Assembly (NCBI GenBank): GCA_019748065.1
Contig: JAIEQB010000080.1
Span: 1-33,322 of the forward strand
Length of the DNA: 33,322 nucleotides
Source of the DNA: Alphaproteobacteria bacterium
GTDB taxonomy: Bacteria; Pseudomonadota; Alphaproteobacteria; UBA9655
Direction: 5' to 3'
Shown in pieces: positions 721 through 33,322 of the stretch. The notes beneath the pieces are model-generated. The model saw only the letters and a program-made list of their open reading frames with translations, searched no databases and had not been told where the DNA came from. The position numbers and the translations under genes are program-made. How positions within the stretch are numbered: position 1 is the first letter of the stretch; each line of letters starts with the position of its first letter.

Positions 721-1626
721 TTATCCCCCACCCCACTGACACACATACTGAGCTGCCTCTTTCAAAGGAGTCGCTTTTTCTCCAAAGGGAGATAGGGTCT
801 TTAAAGCTTCTTTTAAAGTTTCTTCCACTTTTTTGCGGAGCATCAAAGGCCCCAGTAGGGTGAGAAAGGTCAATTTATCTTTATCCTGCTGACACGGCTT
901 ACCCGTGACTTTTTCATTTCCACAACTATCGAGCCAATCGTCCACCATTTGAAACATTCTTCCAAAAAGAAGTCCAAAATTCTTGAGTGCCTCTCGATCA
1001 CTAGCGCTAGCATTTCCTAAAATGGCTCCTGCCTCAAGTGCAAAACCAAACAAAACACCGGTTTTAAGCCGTTGAAGGGTTAATAAATCTTCTTCAGTCG
1101 CTATTGGCCCTTCTTGATTCAAATCCATCATTTGTCCTGCGACAAGCCCTTCCGAGCCAATAACTAGGGAGAGCTCTTGAATAAGTTCTAGCTGAACGTC
1201 TTTTGACACCTTAAGAGAAGATAAGGTTTGAAACGCAAGAGGAATCAGAGCATCTCCCACAAGGATGGCTGTCGCTTCCCCATAGGCTCTATGACAACTT
1301 GGCTTATTCCTGCGTATAGCAGCATTATCCATAGCGGGAAGGTCATCATGCACCAATGAATAGGCATGAACAAGTTCAATAGCCGCTGCAACATGTAAGG
1401 CAATTTCAGTAGGTACAGAAAAAAGGTGGGCGGCGGCATGTGTTAAAAATGCGCGCAAACGTTTCCCGCCTCCCAAAATACTATAAGCCATGGCTTCATG
1501 AAGGCACGTATTAGGGGGAGGGAGGATAGCCTTGAGAATACCTTCAAGCTCGGCTGAAACCGACTTCAGTTGTTGTTCAAAGGCATCATTCCTCAAAGGA
1601 TAGGGGCTTTGTTTCAATTGTACCAT
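721..1626 (-). CDS. ispA: Polyprenyl synthetase, farnesyl/geranylgeranyl diphosphate synthase type
   Basis: A cytosolic short-chain trans-prenyltransferase that condenses isopentenyl diphosphate with allylic diphosphates, feeding ubiquinone and undecaprenyl synthesis. The 301-residue length fits IspA. The substrate-binding GGGKRLRAF is at about 52-60. The first Asp-rich motif is HDDLPAMD (D94, D95, D100) and the second is MVDDWLD (D229, D230, D233). After the first motif the usual DNDDLRRG is DNAAIRRN, so two acidic residues are replaced, although the DDxxxxD metal ligands remain. The ATG at 1626 overlaps the 3' end of xseB by 41 bases, which implies translational coupling; xseB-ispA adjacency is common in proteobacteria. 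It is the last gene of the etfB-etfA-hbd-xseB-ispA run. Chain length (C15 or C20) cannot be read from the sequence alone. Confidence 0.92.
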   Translation of the reverse strand: MVQLKQSPYPLRNDAFEQQLKSVSAELEGILKAILPPPNTCLHEAMAYSILGGGKRLRAFLTHAAAHLFSVPTEIALHVAAAIELVHAYSLVHDDLPAMDNAAIRRNKPSCHRAYGEATAILVGDALIPLAFQTLSSLKVSKDVQLELIQELSLVIGSEGLVAGQMMDLNQEGPIATEEDLLTLQRLKTGVLFGFALEAGAILGNASASDREALKNFGLLFGRMFQMVDDWLDSCGNEKVTGKPCQQDKDKLTFLTLLGPLMLRKKVEETLKEALKTLSPFGEKATPLKEAAQYVCQWGGG

Positions 1627-1822
1627 CGGACTTTACTACAATTTGTTCAACGCGAAGACGGGCATCCTTTAATTTTTTCTCACAATGAGCTCTTAAAGCA
1701 GCGCCTCTTTCATAGGCACTAATCGCCTCATCAAGATTTGTCTTCCCTTCTTCAAGGCGGCGCACGATTGTTTCTAGTTCTTGCAATGCCTGTTCAAAGC
1801 TCATGGTTTCAAGAGTTGTCAT
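1586..1822 (-). CDS. xseB: Exodeoxyribonuclease VII small subunit
   Basis: Small subunit of the XseA/XseB single-strand exonuclease used in DNA repair. The 78-residue product carries the family core: SFEQALQELETIVRRLEEG, then LDEAISAYERGAAL, and a helical C-terminal half ending VEQIV. I place the start at the ATG at 1822, preceded by GGAG five bases upstream. A GTG directly before it at 1825 is an alternative that adds one residue. It starts 8 bases after the hbd stop and its end overlaps ispA by 41 bases, so it belongs to the same transcript. No large subunit gene (xseA) is in the window. Confidence 0.93.
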   Translation of the reverse strand: MTTLETMSFEQALQELETIVRRLEEGKTNLDEAISAYERGAALRAHCEKKLKDARLRVEQIVVKSDGTIETKPLSFEE

Positions 1823-2730: not shown

Positions 2731-3708
2731 TTACTTTTTGACTGTATCGTGTGCTGTCTTATTTCTCAAGATTTCTTTGGTTTTTGTTGTTAACTCAGGC
2801 AACAAAACAAAAAGATCACCCACAAGCCCATAGTCAGCCACTTGAAAAATAGGCGCCTCGGGGTCCTTATTAATGGCAACGATAACTTTGCTGTCCTTCA
2901 TCCCAGCAAGATGTTGAATGGCCCCTGAAATGCCAATAGCGATATAAAGGTCAGGAGCAACCACTTTCCCTGTTTGACCCACTTGATAATCGTTAGGCAC
3001 GAAACCCGCATCCACAGCTGCTCGTGAGGCTCCAATAGCAGCTTCTAAGGTATCGGCAAGATCTTCAAGAAGTGCAAAGTTTTCCTTATTCTGAAAACCT
3101 CTCCCTCCCGCAACAACAATAGAGGCAGCGGTAAGATCAGGGCGTTCAGAGCGACTTTCCTCCATCTTTACAAAGGTTGCAACCGGCCCCGAAGGAGGAA
3201 CAAAAGGATAGCTTTCAATAGACGCCTTGAAGACTGAAAGTGTAGCTTTTTCAAAGGCTGTGGGACGAATGGTCAGCAATTTTTTAGCATCATTTGATTT
3301 AAGGATCGCAATGGCATTGCCCGCATAAATGGGTCTTTTAAAGGTGTTTTGGCTCTGAATTTCAATCACGTCAGAAATTTGGGCTACATCCAATAAAGCC
3401 GCAAGGCCGGGCAACACATTTTTTCCAAAGGTCGATGCGGGGGCCAGAATAAAGTCATAGTCTTGCGCCAACTTTAAAAGAGTGGGTGTCATAGTTTCAG
3501 CAACCAGATAGGAGCAGGATTTATCTTGAACCACCAAAACCTTTTTAAGGCCTTCATAGGAAGAAGCACTCTCAGCAATCTTTTCAAGATTCTCTCCGAA
3601 CAAAACAAGGTGAACGTCAGAAGACAGCTTTTGAGCTGCCGTAAGGGTGGCTAAGGTCCCTGCCGTCAATTCATTTTGATCATGCTCTGCGATAAGAAGA
3701 AGGGGCAT
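2731..3708 (-). CDS. etfA: Electron transfer flavoprotein alpha subunit
   Basis: FAD-binding subunit of the soluble EtfAB dimer, which passes electrons from acyl-CoA dehydrogenases to the quinone pool through ETF:quinone oxidoreductase. The 325-residue length is typical. The N-terminal domain begins PLLLIAEHDQNEL. The C-terminal FAD domain has VVAGGRGFQNKENF, then GASRAAVDAGFVPNDYQVGQTG, then LYIAIGISGAIQHLAGM and INKDPEAPIFQVADYGLVGD, all family hallmarks. Its ATG overlaps the etfB stop by one base (TAATG), a sign of translational coupling that keeps the two subunits stoichiometric. Confidence 0.96.
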   Translation of the reverse strand: MPLLLIAEHDQNELTAGTLATLTAAQKLSSDVHLVLFGENLEKIAESASSYEGLKKVLVVQDKSCSYLVAETMTPTLLKLAQDYDFILAPASTFGKNVLPGLAALLDVAQISDVIEIQSQNTFKRPIYAGNAIAILKSNDAKKLLTIRPTAFEKATLSVFKASIESYPFVPPSGPVATFVKMEESRSERPDLTAASIVVAGGRGFQNKENFALLEDLADTLEAAIGASRAAVDAGFVPNDYQVGQTGKVVAPDLYIAIGISGAIQHLAGMKDSKVIVAINKDPEAPIFQVADYGLVGDLFVLLPELTTKTKEILRNKTAHDTVKK

Positions 3709-4566: not shown

Positions 4567-5338
4567 TTATAAATCAACGCATTGGAACATATGTCATCCA
4601 TAAACTCTCCAACGAGTCCTACAAAGCTTATGTTCCCCCTCGATTGCCACCCGATCCCCCTCTAGATTTAGCCAAGCTCTATCCTTACTTAGAGAAGCCA
4701 ACTCTTGCTTTGGCTGAGTTGAATGGGATACAAAAATCCATCCCCATTACGTCTCTTTTTATTTATATGTACATCCGTAAAGAAGCCTTACTTTCCAGCC
4801 AAATTGAAGGATTTCAAAGCTCCTTTTCAGATTTAATGCTTTGAAAACCATCAAAGACCCAACGTTTCTTTGGAAGATGTAGAAGAAGTCTCCAATTACG
4901 TCAAAGCCATCACCTATGGCCTCAAATGCCTCAAAGATGGTTTCCCTCTCTCCTTAAGGTTACTGAGGGAAATTCATGGCATACTCCATTCTGGGGGGCG
5001 TGGATCTTCAAAACTACCGGCAGAATTTAGACGTTCACAAAACTGGATTGGGGGAACGAGACCTGGAAATGCCTTATTTGTTCCTCCTTCTGTTGATCAT
5101 TTGAATCAATTATTATGATTTGCTTCAAGAAGTAAGGACGCACGGGACTTGGGAGATATGGCTTGAATTCTTCTTGGAAGGCATTTTTAAATCCTCAAAA
5201 CAAGCTATAAAAACAGCGCTCGATATTAATATACTGTTTGACAAAGATATGGCAAAAATAGCCACTCTTGGGCGTGCAAGATTTTCCAGTGAAAAAGCCT
5301 TTGAGTACTTAAAGAAATTGCCACAAGTAACTGTGTAG
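4563..5338 (+). pseudogene. Fic/DOC-family AMPylase pseudogene lacking the catalytic core
   Basis: Three consecutive frames together give a Fic protein. Frame one, readable from about 4584, runs GTYVIHKLSNESYKAYVPP and then PPDPPLDLAKLYPYLEK to RKEALLSSQIEG, the Fic N-terminal domain. It stops near 4842, where a frameshift is needed. Frame two (to about 5117) continues DVEEVSNYVKAI, FPLSLRLLREIHGIL, then EFRRSQNWIGGTRPGNA. Frame three resumes with DLLQEVRTHGTWEIWLEFFLEGIF and the C-terminal helices. Between frames two and three the whole stretch that should carry HPFxxGNGR is absent, about 70 residues by comparison with usual family order. Intact relatives are about 370 residues. No convincing start codon is left at the 5' end. 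The gene separates pduO from etfB, which are often neighbours in alphaproteobacteria, so it looks like an insertion that later decayed. Confidence 0.85.
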
Positions 5339-5565: not shown

Positions 5566-6101
5566 AAAATATCTCCACTCTTTAAGTGATTATCATAACG
5601 AGCCAAGACAAAAAGTAAATCAGAGAGTCGATTAACATACTGGATCAGGATTTTATTAATTTTTTCACTCTCATGGAGAGCGCACATTGATCTTTCCGCC
5701 CGTCTTACTACCGCTCGTGCTTGATGAAGAGTTGCTGAAAGGGAAGAGCCTCCTGGCAAAACAAAGGAAGTGAGAGAGGGCAGAGTTTTATTATAAAAAT
5801 CAAGCTGTTCCTCTAGATAGGTGACTTGAGAACCAGAAAGGCGCAAAGCCCCCTTAGTATCTTCTGTCATAGGCAAACAAAGGTCAGCCCCAACATCAAA
5901 AAGATCATTTTGGATATGAAAGAGGAGAGAGTCAACTGCATCGGCAGCATAAAGGCGCGCAACGCCAATGGTTGAATTTGCCTCATCCACATCTCCAATT
6001 GCTGCCATGTGAAGAGAGGCTTTTGAAACACGTTTGCCTGATCCAAGAGATGTTTTTCCCTTGTCCCCTCCCTTGGTATAAATGCGTGTAAGTTGAACCA
6101 T
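5541..6101 (-). CDS. pduO: Cob(I)yrinic acid a,c-diamide adenosyltransferase, PduO type
   Basis: Transfers the adenosyl group of ATP to cob(I)alamin to make coenzyme B12. The 186-residue length is typical. The N-terminal ATP-binding loop is TRIYTKGGDKGKTSLG, followed by GDVDEANSTIG. The middle and C-terminal helices include FVLPGGSSLSATLHQARAVVRRAER, which carries the conserved Arg-rich active-site region, and YVNRLSDLLFVLAR. Its ATG starts directly after the stop of the HIG1 gene. Carrying this gene without a B12 synthesis cluster nearby suggests salvage or activation of imported cobalamin, though that is inference. Many annotations call it cobO or mmaB-like. Confidence 0.93.
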   Translation of the reverse strand: MVQLTRIYTKGGDKGKTSLGSGKRVSKASLHMAAIGDVDEANSTIGVARLYAADAVDSLLFHIQNDLFDVGADLCLPMTEDTKGALRLSGSQVTYLEEQLDFYNKTLPSLTSFVLPGGSSLSATLHQARAVVRRAERSMCALHESEKINKILIQYVNRLSDLLFVLARYDNHLKSGDILWVPGVNR

Positions 6102-27242: not shown

Positions 27243-27818
27243 ATGCTGGATGTGCGAAATATTTCATTCCCCCCTCTCTTTTCAGATCTCTCGTTTTCCC
27301 TTTCAAAACAAGAGATATTATTGGTTCGCGGGACAAATGGGGCGGGAAAATCAACTCTTCTCCGCATGATAGCGGGGCTTATCCCCTCCCCTCCGGGAGC
27401 TTTATTTTGGGACGGCAAAAGAATTCAACTTTCCGTTTATCAGCAAAATATTCTCTATAGTGGCCACTTGCTGGGGCTTCACCCGGAAGCTCTTTTAAAG
27501 GATCAAGTCAATCTATGGCATTATCACTATCGGGTTGAAAAAAAAGTTATCGAGGCGGCACTCCATATTTGGGGAGTTGCACCTTTTACAAATCAAAAGA
27601 CGGCGCACCTCTCACAAGGGCAGCAAAAGCGTCTCAGTTTAAGCCGTCTCCACTGGCTTGCACGCCCTTTATGGATACTGGATGAACCTCACTCAAACCT
27701 CGATACCGAGGGCCGAAAAATTTTGGAGGACACTCTCGCCCATCACCTAAAGAATGAAGGTCTAGCTATATTCGCAAGCCATGAAAAACGCCCAGACGTC
27801 CGAGAACTTTGCCTATGA
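27243..27818 (+). CDS. ccmA: Heme exporter ATP-binding protein CcmA
   Basis: ATPase of the CcmABCD complex, which releases holo-CcmE after heme loading in the System I cytochrome c maturation pathway. 191 residues. Walker A is GTNGAGKST (30-38), the signature is LSQGQQKRLSLSRL, Walker B is LWILDEPHSNLD and the switch His is in FASHEKRP. Length and the QQKRLSLSRL form are typical of CcmA. AAGG precedes the ATG at 27243. It overlaps ccmB by four bases (ATGA). Confidence 0.94.
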   Translation: MLDVRNISFPPLFSDLSFSLSKQEILLVRGTNGAGKSTLLRMIAGLIPSPPGALFWDGKRIQLSVYQQNILYSGHLLGLHPEALLKDQVNLWHYHYRVEKKVIEAALHIWGVAPFTNQKTAHLSQGQQKRLSLSRLHWLARPLWILDEPHSNLDTEGRKILEDTLAHHLKNEGLAIFASHEKRPDVRELCL

Positions 27819-28465
27819 TTTCCCGGGAGTTCTATAATGCTTATCTTCACAAGGGGAGCCTTTTATCCACCTTTGCTTTTTTCGCCCTCGCTCTTTTTTG
27901 TGTTTCCTTGACTCTGGGCCCCAATGAAACTCTTTTAAGGCAATGCGCGCCTGGGTTGATTTGGATTCTGGCCATTCTCACCATTTTCTTCTCCACCCCC
28001 CTTCTTTTAAAAAGGGAAGCGCAATGCGGCCTTTTGGATGAAATCCTGCTGCACCCCTCTCTAACGTCAACTTATCTTTTATCTAAAATCATGGCTGAAT
28101 TCCTTTTCATTGGTCTTCCTTTAGCTTTGATGAGTTTCCTCCTCTCCCCTCTTTTTGCCCTTTCTTCAGGAGAGATGCTTTCGCTCCTTTTAACCCTTCT
28201 CATCGGGTTTCCTGCTTTGAGTGCTCTTGGAATTCTAGGGAGTTTTCTCACTTTAAATACTCAAGGCGGCAGCCTTCTTCTCTCTCTTATCATTCTGCCC
28301 TTGACCCTACCCCTTCTTATTTTTGGGCTTTCGGTGATGGAAATGACGCGATTAGGACTTGATTCTTTCCCGTCTTTCTGCCTCCTTATGGGAAGCTCTC
28401 TCTTCCTCTTGATCCTTAGCGTAACAGCAGGAAGCTGGGCCCTTCCTTTTGTAGCGGAGCGTTAA
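27815..28465 (+). CDS. ccmB: Heme exporter membrane protein CcmB
   Basis: Six-helix membrane partner of CcmA. 216 residues from the ATG at 27815, which overlaps the ccmA stop; a TTG at 27809 would add two residues. The family start FYNAYLHKGSLLS is followed by helices at about 20-38 and 44-62, LLKREAQCGLLDEILLHP, SKIMAEFLFIGLPLALMSFLL, and glycine- and leucine-rich helices to the C-terminus. It ends one base before ccmC. Confidence 0.92.
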   Translation: MISREFYNAYLHKGSLLSTFAFFALALFCVSLTLGPNETLLRQCAPGLIWILAILTIFFSTPLLLKREAQCGLLDEILLHPSLTSTYLLSKIMAEFLFIGLPLALMSFLLSPLFALSSGEMLSLLLTLLIGFPALSALGILGSFLTLNTQGGSLLLSLIILPLTLPLLIFGLSVMEMTRLGLDSFPSFCLLMGSSLFLLILSVTAGSWALPFVAER

Positions 28466-28466
28466 A

Positions 28467-29180
28467 ATGAAATTCACTTTGGCCAAACCTCGTTACTTCC
28501 TTAAGGTCACAAATTTTTTGTTCCCCCTGGCCCTTGTGCTGGGCGCTCTTTGCTTTGCGGCAGGCCTTTATTCAGCGCTTATCACCTCCCCTCCCGATTA
28601 CCAACAAGGGGACGCCATGCGCATCATGTACATTCATGTGCCGGCCTCGTGGATGGCCCTTTTTTGCTATGGTGCTTTGGCGGTTTTCAGTCTTTTTGTT
28701 TTGGTCTGGCGTCACCCATTTGCGGAAATTTTGGCCATCAGTGTGACCCCCATCGGCGCTCTTTTTACGGTGCTCAGTCTTGTCACTGGCTCTCTCTGGG
28801 GAAAGCCCATGTGGGGAGCTTACTGGGTGTGGGATGCGCGCCTCACCTCCGTCCTTGTGCTTCTATTCCTTTATGGGGGCTATTGGGCCCTGTATAAAGC
28901 CTATGCCCATTCCACCCAAGGCATAAGAGCTGCCTCTCTTTTAGCCATCATCGGCGTGATTAATCTTCCCATTATTAAGGGATCCGTTGACTGGTGGAAC
29001 ACCCTTCATCAGCCGGCTAGCTTAACAAAATTTGGAAGCCCCTCCATTCATTCCAGCATGCTTCTTCCCCTGGGTCTCATGACTGCGGCATATGGTTTTT
29101 ACTTTCTGGTGCTTTTTATCATACGGGCCCGCACCGAACTCCATAAGCGCAAACTTCTCGTTCAGGAGGGCCTCTCATGA
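28467..29180 (+). CDS. ccmC: Heme transporter CcmC
   Basis: Loads heme onto CcmE at the periplasmic face. 237 residues with about six membrane helices. The first His ligand is in MRIMYIHVPASWMA. The tryptophan-rich motif WGAYWVWDARLTS (WWD domain) lies between helices, and the second His is in DWWNTLHQPASL. The C-terminal helix is followed by basic residues. It overlaps ccmD by four bases (ATGA). Confidence 0.95.
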   Translation: MKFTLAKPRYFLKVTNFLFPLALVLGALCFAAGLYSALITSPPDYQQGDAMRIMYIHVPASWMALFCYGALAVFSLFVLVWRHPFAEILAISVTPIGALFTVLSLVTGSLWGKPMWGAYWVWDARLTSVLVLLFLYGGYWALYKAYAHSTQGIRAASLLAIIGVINLPIIKGSVDWWNTLHQPASLTKFGSPSIHSSMLLPLGLMTAAYGFYFLVLFIIRARTELHKRKLLVQEGLS

Positions 29181-29284
29181 GCTTGGATACTCCTTATCTT
29201 TTTTATATCCTCAGCGCCTATGGATTTACCTTTTTTAGCCTAAGTGCATTTTTATGGTGGAGTTATAGGGATTCAAAAAAATGA
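29177..29284 (+). CDS. ccmD: Cytochrome c maturation protein CcmD
   Basis: A 35-residue single-helix membrane protein. It begins MSLDTPYLFYILSAYGFTF, has the conserved YxxxAYG-like element and one helix (FTFFSLSAFLWW), and ends in a basic YRDSKK tail, which is the CcmD pattern. It links CcmABC to CcmE and promotes holo-CcmE release. It is too short for standard length cut-offs, but both flanks are ATGA overlaps with ccmC and ccmE, which strongly supports it. Confidence 0.9.
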   Translation: MSLDTPYLFYILSAYGFTFFSLSAFLWWSYRDSKK

Positions 29285-29715
29285 AGCCAAAGCATCAGCG
29301 CTTTCTCATCATTTTCCTGGGACTTGTGGGCCTTGGGATTGCTGTTTTTCTTGTCTCAATCGCCTTTCGGGACAACCTTGTTTTCTTTTATACCCCCACT
29401 GATTTAAGCCAGAAAAAAATTCATCCTGAGCAGCGCCTTCGGGTGGGGGGCCTGGTTGAGAAAAACTCCTTAAGGAAACACGGCCAAAAAGTTACTTTCC
29501 ATATTACGGATCACGCAAACGTTTTGAAAGTTAATTACACAGGTCTTTTGCCCGATCTCTTTCGCGAGGGGCAAGGCGTGGTTGTGGAAGGCAAACTTTC
29601 TGAGCCCGGCATATTCCAAGCAGAAACTGTACTGGCCAAACACGACGAAAATTATATGCCCAAAGAAGTGGCTGACAGGCTGAAGGAAAAAGGGTTATGG
29701 CGCGATGATCGGTGA
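29281..29715 (+). CDS. ccmE: Cytochrome c-type heme chaperone CcmE
   Basis: Membrane-anchored periplasmic chaperone carrying heme covalently from CcmC to CcmF. 144 residues. An N-terminal anchor (FLIIFLGLVGLGIAVFLV) is followed by an OB-fold with RLRVGGLVEKNSL and FHITDHANVLKVNYTG. The heme-binding His121 and the Tyr125 ligand are in KHDENYMP. It overlaps ccmD by four bases and ccmF by eleven. Confidence 0.96.
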   Translation: MKPKHQRFLIIFLGLVGLGIAVFLVSIAFRDNLVFFYTPTDLSQKKIHPEQRLRVGGLVEKNSLRKHGQKVTFHITDHANVLKVNYTGLLPDLFREGQGVVVEGKLSEPGIFQAETVLAKHDENYMPKEVADRLKEKGLWRDDR

Positions 29716-31870
29716 GATTGGGAATCTCTTCTTAGCCCTGGCTTTAGGATTTTTAGCGGTGCAAGTGGGCGCTTCTTTTTGGGGCGTGCAGCGGGAAAAT
29801 AGCCGCTACCTTATCCTGGGAAAAGCCGCCGCTTACCTGCAAGGCGTCCTGATTCTAGCTGCCTTTATCACCTTAATGCTTGCCTTCTTATTTTGTGATT
29901 TCTCTCTTGTCACGGTTGCCCTTAATGATCACACCCAGCTTCCTTGGTATTATCGTCTTGGAGCCAGTTGGGGCAATCATGAAGGCTCTCTCCTTCTGTT
30001 CGTTTTAATCTTATCTTTGATGGCCACAGCTCTTGCTTTCTCCCTTAAAGATCCCTTCTTTCGGGCCCGCACCCTGACCTTTCAAGGACTCCTAATTTTT
30101 TGTTTTCTTGTCTTTTTGCTGATGACGTCAAATCCTTTCACCCTTCTTCCCTTTCCTCTCCTAGAAGGTCAGTCTTTGAATCCTCTTCTTCAAGATAAAA
30201 GCTTGATGATTCACCCGCCCTTTTTGTACCTTGGATATGTTGGATTTTCAGCGCCCTTTTCTCTCGCTCTTGCCGCGCTTTGGGGAAAAAGTGAGGGTGC
30301 GACCTGGGCCACCCTGACCCGCCCGTGGGCCTTATTTGCCTGGTCTGCTCTCACCATAGGTATCACCCTTGGCAGTTGGTGGGCCTATTATGAATTGGGG
30401 TGGGGCGGTTGGTGGTTTTGGGACCCGGTGGAAAATGCATCCCTCATGCCCTGGCTTGTAGGAACAGCTCTACTCCATGTTTTAAGAACCCAGTCCTTTT
30501 ACCGGTGGAGCCTGCTCTTGAGTCTTCTTACCTTTGGATTCAGCCTTTTGGGGACCTTCTTGGTGCGGTCAGGCTTGATTGCGTCCGTCCACTCCTTTGC
30601 TCAAGATCCAGAGCGAGGCATGTTTATCCTGAACCTTATCGGGGGGATTATGGGATTTTCCCTTTTCCTGTGGGTATGGCGCTCCCCTCGCTTTCAAAGT
30701 CCTTCTGTGCCTCTTTTCTCACGCAAAGGACTTCTTTTTTTGAACTCTCTCCTTCTCTTTGTGGGCCTAGTCACCCTTTGTTTTGGAACTCTCTATCCTC
30801 TTGCAAGCGAAGGTCTCTGGAATGAAACCGTTGCCGTAGGAGCTCCCTACTTTAACCAAACTTTGGTTCCTCTTCTCCTCCCTGCCCTTCTGTTAATACC
30901 TGTAGGCGCTCTCTTAAGGGAGGAAGAAACATCCTTTTTCCAACTTCTCATTCTTCCCTTGACGGCGAGCCTAGGGGCTATAGTTTTCCTACTCTACATT
31001 TATTATCCTCTTGCTTTGGAAACAATTCTAGGATGTGGATTAGCCATTTGGGTTTTGACGGGATCCATAGAAGCTTTTTTCAAAGGTCGCCTTCGTCTGG
31101 GGCCAACCCTTGCTCATATCGGCGTGGCTCTTTCCCTCTTGGGCATGAGTGTGGGGAGCGGTCTTCGGGTTGATGAGGCGAAAATTCTTGGGCTCAATGA
31201 GAGCCTTACTATCGGCAGCAAAACCCTCACCCTTCAAGATGTGACCGAAGGTAAAACGCCCACCTATCTTTACGAGAAAGCAATGCTCGTTTCAGGAAAA
31301 AATATTTTGACACCTGAAAAGCGACTTTATCAGCCTCAAAATTCACTCCTCAGCGAAACGGCCATTTTAACCAATGGACTCTCTGACCTCTATGTTATTC
31401 TGGGCCCCTATCAGGGTGAGAAGCGCTGGCTCTTCCGAGCCTCCCATATTCCCCTTGCGCCTTGGATTTGGATTGGGGGCCTTTTGATGGCGGCGGGTGC
31501 ACTTATCTCACTTTTGAGGGGGAAAGAAGTTCTTATAATGCTCCTCGCGCTTCTATTGATGCCCCACGCCTTGAATGCCACGTCTGACCTTTATAAGGAA
31601 GTCCGCTGCCCCGTTTGTGCGGGTCAATCCATTGCCGACTCTGAAATGCCGGAGGCGAAATCCTTAAAAGAATTTATTGATTTGGCGTTAGCAAGAGGAA
31701 AATCCGACGAGGAGATAAGAGAGGAACTGTGCCAAAAGTTTGGGGATGATATTCTCTTCCGTCCCCCCTTTAACAAAAAAACAATTTTCTTGTGGGGACT
31801 TCCCTTTGCCCTCTTCCTCATCGCACTCCTTGGATTTTTATGGAGAGGGTTTCAGTCTCGCGCTAAATAG
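29705..31870 (+). CDS. ccmFH: CcmF-CcmH fusion: heme lyase and apocytochrome thiol oxidoreductase
   Basis: A single 721-residue frame. Residues 1 to about 610 are CcmF: many membrane helices, WGNHEGSLLLF near 90, the WWD motif WGGWWFWDPVENASLMPW at about 232-249, GSFLVRSG-like GTFLVRSGLI, and a periplasmic domain. Residues about 612-721 are CcmH: a hydrophobic leader (MLLALLLMPHALNA), VRCPVCAGQSIADSE with Cys635 and Cys638, the three-helix domain (SDEEIREELCQKFGDDILFRPP), and a C-terminal membrane helix. In most bacteria these are separate genes. At the join, TAATG (31536-31540) has its ATG as codon 612 in frame, while the TAA lies in the +1 frame. So one indel upstream of an ancestral overlap would explain the fusion. 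CcmG (DsbE) and CcmI are missing from the operon. Confidence 0.9.
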   Translation: MIGEIGNLFLALALGFLAVQVGASFWGVQRENSRYLILGKAAAYLQGVLILAAFITLMLAFLFCDFSLVTVALNDHTQLPWYYRLGASWGNHEGSLLLFVLILSLMATALAFSLKDPFFRARTLTFQGLLIFCFLVFLLMTSNPFTLLPFPLLEGQSLNPLLQDKSLMIHPPFLYLGYVGFSAPFSLALAALWGKSEGATWATLTRPWALFAWSALTIGITLGSWWAYYELGWGGWWFWDPVENASLMPWLVGTALLHVLRTQSFYRWSLLLSLLTFGFSLLGTFLVRSGLIASVHSFAQDPERGMFILNLIGGIMGFSLFLWVWRSPRFQSPSVPLFSRKGLLFLNSLLLFVGLVTLCFGTLYPLASEGLWNETVAVGAPYFNQTLVPLLLPALLLIPVGALLREEETSFFQLLILPLTASLGAIVFLLYIYYPLALETILGCGLAIWVLTGSIEAFFKGRLRLGPTLAHIGVALSLLGMSVGSGLRVDEAKILGLNESLTIGSKTLTLQDVTEGKTPTYLYEKAMLVSGKNILTPEKRLYQPQNSLLSETAILTNGLSDLYVILGPYQGEKRWLFRASHIPLAPWIWIGGLLMAAGALISLLRGKEVLIMLLALLLMPHALNATSDLYKEVRCPVCAGQSIADSEMPEAKSLKEFIDLALARGKSDEEIREELCQKFGDDILFRPPFNKKTIFLWGLPFALFLIALLGFLWRGFQSRAK

Positions 31871-33030
31871 GGAACGCGCCCCGTACTCCCCATGGCATGG
31901 CGAATCATAAACTTTTTCAAGGGAGGGATGTTTTTAACTATTCCAAAGCCAAGGGATCGCACCCGTGCGATAGAGCGACTTTGGGTGGAAAAAACCCTCA
32001 CAAAACCATCCATCAAAAGAGCCATGAAATAAATATCAAGTCGGCGTTGTCTTTGGTATTGTTTCAAAATTGTTTGAGAGCCCAGATCTAGTCCTAAAGA
32101 GAAAGCTTCGGTGAGAACATCCACAAGGGTGGCAACATCACGAAGCCCGACATTTAAACCTTGTCCCGCAACAGGATGAAACGTATGGGCCGCATCTCCA
32201 ACAAGAGCAAGGCGCGCATCAATCAGGCGTCTTGGCAAGCAAACTCCCAAGGGATAGGAAAACCGCTGACTTGAAAGCTTCAGCTTGCCTAAAGCCCCCC
32301 CGAATGCCGCCTGAACTTCCTCCGTAAAAGCAGCCTCTGACAGAGAAAGTAAAACTTTTGCTTTGTCTTCATGAATGGACCATACAAGGCCCGATTCATT
32401 ACCTGGGCGCGGCACAAAAGCCAAGGGGCCAGAAGGCAAAAAGTGTTCAAACCCTCGATGATTGTGAGGGTAGCTATGGGTCATATTGCATACAATGGCA
32501 ACCTGATCATAGGCCCAGCGCGTCAGAGGGATATCTGCCCACTTTCGCAAGGCTGAAGATTTCCCATCGGCCGCAATGCAGAGAGGACTTTCTATGCATT
32601 CCCCCGTCTCTGTTTCCACGGACGTCATGGAGCCTTCTCTCTTAAAGGACGCAACACGCTGAGGAGCATAAAAAGTAATATTTTTTGAGCTCAACACCTT
32701 TTCTAAAATATGCAATTTTAACAGAGCACTGTCCACAACATAGCCCAGTGGCTTGCCTTGAACATCCTGGGCATCATAATCAACCCATCTCGGCAATACC
32801 CCATCGGAAGTATAAATGGACATAATAGGCGTTGCCGCCTCAGGCCACATGCCAAGTTTGGTAAAAATATTGTGGGAGCTGCGAGAAAGAGCAAAGGACC
32901 GTCCATCGGAAATGAGCGGAGCCTTCGGGTCAATTTGATCAATAAGCGCAACCTTCAGCCCTTTCTGAGCCAGGGCATAAGCTAATGTGCCGCCCGTAAG
33001 GCCTCCTCCAACGATGGTGACATTTGTCAT
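31852..33030 (-). CDS. ubiH: UbiH/UbiF/Coq6-family FAD-dependent ubiquinone ring hydroxylase
   Basis: Flavoprotein monooxygenase adding a hydroxyl group to the ubiquinone ring. 392 residues from the ATG at 33030: MTNVTIVGGGLTGGTLAYAL contains the FAD-binding GxGxxG (residues 8-13, GGGLTG). The second motif is around CIAADGKSSALRKWA, and the third is GDAAHTFHPVAGQGLNVGL, characteristic of the family. I reject the longer start at 33072, whose 14 extra residues are basic and atypical; AGAAG lies before the inner ATG. UbiH, UbiF and UbiI cannot be distinguished by eye. It overlaps the 3' end of ccmFH by 19 bases tail to tail. Confidence 0.88.
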   Translation of the reverse strand: MTNVTIVGGGLTGGTLAYALAQKGLKVALIDQIDPKAPLISDGRSFALSRSSHNIFTKLGMWPEAATPIMSIYTSDGVLPRWVDYDAQDVQGKPLGYVVDSALLKLHILEKVLSSKNITFYAPQRVASFKREGSMTSVETETGECIESPLCIAADGKSSALRKWADIPLTRWAYDQVAIVCNMTHSYPHNHRGFEHFLPSGPLAFVPRPGNESGLVWSIHEDKAKVLLSLSEAAFTEEVQAAFGGALGKLKLSSQRFSYPLGVCLPRRLIDARLALVGDAAHTFHPVAGQGLNVGLRDVATLVDVLTEAFSLGLDLGSQTILKQYQRQRRLDIYFMALLMDGFVRVFSTQSRSIARVRSLGFGIVKNIPPLKKFMIRHAMGSTGRVPYLARD

Positions 33031-33322
33031 AAGTTTTCTTCTCTTTGTATTCTGCATTTTTCTATGAACCAATGTACAATGTTGCTTTAGTAGCCGAATC
33101 TAAACTGAAAGAATTTAACTTTAGATGATTTTACGCATGAGGATCGTGAGAGCAACCTTTTTCTTTTTCCATGTAATTTGACAATTTTTTTAAATATGTT
33201 AATTTATAGATGATGTAAAACTTATTAACACAGGTGCAATTATGACATGAATAAGTTCAGATACAAGTGAGACAAAAAGTTAGTTGAGGTAGGGGCTGTG
33301 AAGTGGAGGGTAAAGCGATAGC
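33031..33322. other. Window end, no gene recognised
   Basis: The region upstream of ubiH contains its leader and probably its promoter, but no clear -35/-10 pair. From about 33100 it is AT-rich and stop-laden in all frames I checked. The last 60 bases are more purine-rich and could belong to a feature that continues beyond the window. Confidence 0.4.

Follow-up and report, generated by a model that had tools for sequence, protein, structure and literature searches.

Recurrent in-frame fusion of ccmF and ccmH in Alphaproteobacteria, with a signal-peptide-like segment at the join

CcmF and CcmH together form the holocytochrome c synthase, in which the heme is bound by CcmF and the thiols are supplied by CcmH (PMC10746174, PMC3601427, PMC8975832), and the complex of the two represents the final step of System I. 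In the window analysed here, a stretch of DNA of 33,322 nucleotides, both proteins are encoded by one reading frame, which raises the question whether this frame reflects an error or a very recent mutation, a permanent link between the two proteins, or a gene fusion whose product would be separated again after translation.

The frame runs from an ATG at position 29705 to a TAG at 31868-31870 without internal stops (Table 1). Its product carries three Pfam domains above their curated cut-offs, namely Cytochrom_C_asm (residues 89-290), CcmF_C (310-604) and CcmH (626-714), and hence agrees with the initial annotation, which had described CcmF and a complete CcmH domain within one frame of 721 residues, an RCPVC motif in the latter (located at residues 634-638) and a former CcmH signal sequence that has become internal and sits between the two halves. 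The CcmF half reaches 146.4 bits for Cytochrom_C_asm and 184.9 bits for CcmF_C and covers almost the entire NCBIfam model TIGR00353 (CcmF/NrfE), there with 495.1 bits and thus below the cut-off of 569.05. As Pfam domains, motifs and fold concur, we take it as a divergent CcmF/NrfE member and not as a separate family. Besides the WWD motif, it contains candidate heme-ligand histidines in IHPPF (residues 169-173), ALLHVLR (255-261), SVHSFA (294-299) and LAHIGV (469-474); heme-ligand roles of the WWD and histidine motifs of CcmF have been described (PMC8975832, PMC10746174). The CcmH half matches PF03918 with 88.8 bits at a cut-off of 25. Among the matches of a PDB sequence search, the only solved relatives were CcmF 6zmq (residues 5-603) and CcmH 2hl7 and 2kw0 (residues 628-690), i.e., the two proteins apart and no structure of the CcmFH complex. 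In the AlphaFold model of the 721 residues (mean pLDDT 87.8) both halves are confident, and Foldseek matched this model to CcmF 6zmq (E 2.6e-26, TM-score 0.86 by target) and next, weakly, to CcsBA 7s9y.

The fused gene closes an operon of the order ccmA-ccmB-ccmC-ccmD-ccmE-ccmF/H, with overlaps at ccmC/ccmD, ccmD/ccmE and ccmE/ccmF. A second CcmH that would make the fused copy redundant was not found elsewhere in the genome, and ccmG is absent from the ccm operon. Two periplasmic thioredoxin-like proteins, one ResA/DsbE-like with WCEPC and one TlpA-like with WCPSC, are encoded outside the operon (G000:C42:10986-11378 and G000:C72:35075-35434; L053 and L054); both score below curated cut-offs, and they could act as substitutes for CcmG. 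On the other strand, a frame at 31852-33072 (-), named by eye as a UbiH-like FAD monooxygenase, runs over the last 19 bases of the fused gene.

Table 1. Features of the ccm operon and of the fused frame (positions in the window)
Feature	Position	Strand	Basis or remark
ccmA, heme exporter ATPase	27243..27818	+	TIGR01189 152 bits, above cut-off
ccmB, start codon uncertain	27809..28465	+	inferred from gene order (ccmA before, ccmC after) and from a sequence typical of membrane proteins
ccmC	28467..29180	+	TIGR01191 247 bits, above cut-off
ccmD, 35 aa	29177..29284	+	TIGR03141 31.8 bits, above cut-off
ccmE, heme chaperone, overlaps start of fused gene	29281..29715	+	PF03100, NF009731
Fused ccmF-ccmH frame, 721 aa	29705..31870	+	ORF translation and Pfam
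CcmF half, residues 1-606 (last Pfam domain ending at 604)	29705..31522	+	PF01578 and PF16327; PDB 6zmq sequence match; confident AlphaFold model
WWD motif WGGWWFWDP, residues 233-241	30401..30427	+	motif search
Signal-peptide-like segment within the chain, KEVLIMLLALLLMPHALNA (residues 607-625), with putative cleavage site behind A625	31523..31579	+	sequence features; pLDDT < 50
TAATG, no sign of function	31536..31540	+	not conserved in near relatives
CcmH half, residues 626-721 (Pfam domain 626-714)	31580..31867	+	PF03918; sequence matches to PDB 2hl7 and 2kw0
RCPVC thiol motif, residues 634-638	31604..31618	+	motif search
CcmH C-terminal helix, probable membrane anchor, residues 694-720	31784..31864	+	helix in AlphaFold model

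The initial annotation had interpreted the join as the trace of a recent single-base indel, or of a sequencing error, close to a preserved stop/start overlap. The landmarks on which this proposal relied are present, namely a run of five G at 31518-31522 and, downstream of it, the TAATG, whose ATG shares the frame of CcmF and whose TAA is in +1. The proposal is, however, contradicted by the distribution of the fusion, for which a search in related genomes had been suggested. The genus was sampled with 15 genomes, of which 13 gave a CcmH match (the remaining two are 83% and 63% complete). In 12 of the 13 CcmH-bearing genomes, CcmH and CcmF share one open frame, 727-797 residues long, and the same fused frame, with 746 residues, is found in the sister genus (G015). 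As this fused frame recurs in the sister genus and, within the genus, in assemblies from 11 further species, the fusion is far beyond chance. Moreover, both landmarks are lost in the nearest relatives, where the TAATG site reads ATC ATA (L033) or TTA GTT (L039) and the G run is broken (AGG AGA, AGA CGG), with the frame kept open in both. The TAATG is therefore not a relic of an overlapping stop and start, and this candidate was rejected. Across the 28 codons of the join in the window, L033, L039 and L042, the differences by codon position amount to 40/12/61 without any gap; this excess of third- over second-position changes is typical of coding sequence, here under relaxed constraint on the amino acids. 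Judged by these comparisons, the CcmF-CcmH fusion is genuine and shared by nearly all relatives in the genus, and we leave next to no probability for the alternative that two genes were merged at the five-G run, be it by an error of sequencing or assembly or by a single-base indel of very recent date.

How often the fusion arose was addressed with a CcmF tree of 66 rows. The genus (g1) and G015 form one fused clade with 98% SH-aLRT beside G016, the family's third genus, in which CcmF and CcmH are separate frames. One member of the genus, G007, carries the two on separate contigs; it groups with L035 (96%) inside the fused genus. On this tree, 7 changes of the fused label are required, 6 of them forced by well-supported branches; the tree is a quick search with several rows of odd composition, and the number of origins is thus approximate. 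According to the tree, there was a single fusion event in the source lineage and at least one re-split, as G007 lies inside the fused clade, and fusion took place independently in other alphaproteobacterial families and in one betaproteobacterial MAG. Fused genes occur in family f20 (G035, with adjacent but separate genes in its congener G263), in four genomes of family f49, in two of family f116 (with separate genes in the relative G131), in a Candidatus Odyssella MAG (L092) and, outside the Alphaproteobacteria, in a Piscinibacter MAG of the Betaproteobacteria (L079). As the length of an open frame is by itself misleading in high-GC genomes, fusion was scored in wider samples by a profile spanning the join. 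An even sample of the class, comprising 385 genomes, gave a fused match in 12 genomes from four families (including G008, where it consists of two pieces of one 797-residue frame), and a sample of 200 genomes from the phylum added only one further candidate, G433, whose match holds a stop. In many unfused alphaproteobacteria, ccmH directly follows ccmF or overlaps it, and we infer that this arrangement is the source from which the fusions arose by read-through.

The last helix of CcmF comprises residues 586-603. The stretch from there to RCPVC contains basic residues, then a hydrophobic core and finally a site of the Ala-x-Ala kind, and reads KEVLIMLLALLLMPHALNA/TSDLY in the window (the slash marks the putative site, here and in the following). 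The corresponding joins are KRKQFIVLFLLLPFSAFA/EEN in L034, RKKSLLILTLLLLPTFSYA/EST in L043, KSLKVLGIFLFLLFLPINSHA/EPS in L142 and AALCLMLLCAPVFA/GEA in the Piscinibacter MAG, and the hydrophobic core of the segment comprises 12-17 residues. In 22 fused proteins, the median length of the uncharged run is 14.5 residues, versus 16 in 116 stand-alone CcmH proteins, and 21 of the former and 112 of the latter have an Ala-type site; in L044 the script chose the last CcmF helix, the true segment ending in FSLNA/TS. A shuffled control gave an expectation of 12.5 of 22 for such a site, and since such a site is loosely defined and the proteins are relatives of one another, this comparison is a weak test. 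The residue at position -3 of the putative site is Leu, which is acceptable, if not the commonest choice. Taken together, these features suggest that the join segment is much like the signal peptide of a stand-alone CcmH and are consistent with cleavage. Length and sequence of the join vary widely among the fused relatives.

Some of the relatives' fused genes contain in-frame palindromic repeat inserts, located in L038 at 1606-1701 (-), in L040 at 4609-4704 and 5581-5676 (+) and in L035 at 3562-3642 (-). Two of these lie at or beside the CcmF/CcmH join (L038, L040), and three fold as near-perfect hairpins with -52 to -69 kcal/mol. We take them to resemble palindromic elements of the Rickettsia type.

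Since several independent fusions keep the segment as it is found in stand-alone CcmH, signal peptidase I most likely still cuts it. The explanation that we favour, and consider somewhat more probable than all others combined, is an inherited ccmF-ccmH fusion that is translated as one chain and cut by signal peptidase I near A625/T626 into separate CcmF and CcmH. One chain is supported by the intact domains and motifs, by the conservation of the fused frame and by its CcmH being the sole one of the genome. The two halves of the synthase, the heme lyase CcmF with its WWD domain and the CxxC thiol protein CcmH, would thus be translated by a single ribosome in a 1:1 ratio. According to the predicted topology, the closing transmembrane helix of CcmF would leave its tail in the cytoplasm, upon which the old CcmH signal sequence would take the CcmH domain to the periplasm, where the final helix would anchor it. 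After the putative cut, ordinary separate CcmF and CcmH would act as the usual complex, and holocytochrome c synthase would be the presumable function of the fused product. A like layout is known from the cytochrome b/c1 precursor (fbcH) of Bradyrhizobium, in which a polytopic membrane protein, an internal signal peptide and an anchored periplasmic protein follow each other and which is cut by signal peptidase; its proteins are unrelated, and cleavage is reported for fbcH, whereas it is predicted here. E. coli CcmH loses its signal peptide, and according to the authors of AF2Complex it is modelled correctly only once this peptide has been taken off (PMC8975832).

The main alternative, distinctly less probable, is the lasting physical link proposed in the initial annotation, in which the chain stays uncut, with the signal sequence serving as a short transmembrane segment and CcmH held covalently beside the heme site of CcmF. 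One open frame conserved within the genus and recurrent fusion in several families suggest that joining the two proteins does no harm or is of use. Moreover, the CcmF and CcmH of known systems assemble into a complex (PMC10746174), and natural CcsB-CcsA fusions of System II are active (PMC10663686). On this reading, the product would be a permanently tethered CcmF-CcmH synthase with several independent origins, the System I counterpart of the CcsBA fusions. However, the segment has kept the features of a cleavable signal and has not been lengthened towards a membrane-spanning helix, the join is variable and carries palindromic inserts at or beside it (L038, L040), as if it were non-structural, and the AlphaFold model is unstructured there, with just a short helix at pLDDT < 50 for residues 607-627. 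A separate CcmH could alternatively be produced by internal initiation at the ATG at 31538, or at a nearby ATG or TTG, which would render the fused chain a by-product. This ATG is in frame and preceded by a purine-rich stretch, but it is replaced by ATA in L033 and GTT in L039, no start codon is present near the CcmH segment in L034 and L038, and the product initiated at 31538 would be devoid of the basic residues that a signal peptide needs, so that we regard internal initiation as very unlikely.

Compared to the CcmFH synthase of other System I organisms, nothing is missing from either protein, as the WWD motif, the candidate heme histidines and the CxxC thiol motif are all present, and the operon order ccmABCDE-F-H is the same; the difference is that ccmF and ccmH, here one frame, are usually two genes that lie next to each other, overlap or have ccmG between them. 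The parts are ordinary System I components, and the fusion is not a new system. System II likewise has two synthase subunits that are joined in some lineages (the CcsBA fusions of Helicobacter, Wolinella and Bacteroides) and separate in others, but these are other proteins, and there the fused chain is the active protein (PMC10663686). Fusion of System I components in some lineages is also exemplified by the E. coli CcmH, whose partners are, however, CcmH and CcmI instead of CcmF and CcmH and which represents a minority arrangement (PMC3601427). An earlier report of a CcmF-CcmH fusion was not found in the open-access literature, to which our search was confined. The single-frame version fixes the ratio of CcmF to CcmH at 1:1. 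If the product is uncut, it would provide a single-chain target for cryo-EM and structural work, as the CcsBA fusions did for System II. If it is cut, it would represent a recurrent gene fusion without protein fusion, which an internal signal peptide keeps possible, and would caution against interpreting such frames as tethered proteins.

Additional ccm genes were observed in two other genomes. In G002, a further CcmF of divergent sequence (L150 3234-5208) lacks a CcmH and has CcmC-, CcmB- and CcmA-like frames beside it on the other strand. In G013, a lone CcmH (L050 3739-4159) lies amid the genes that flank the ccm operon of the window, with a complete fused cluster elsewhere (L042), and is probably the relic of a second ccm cluster.
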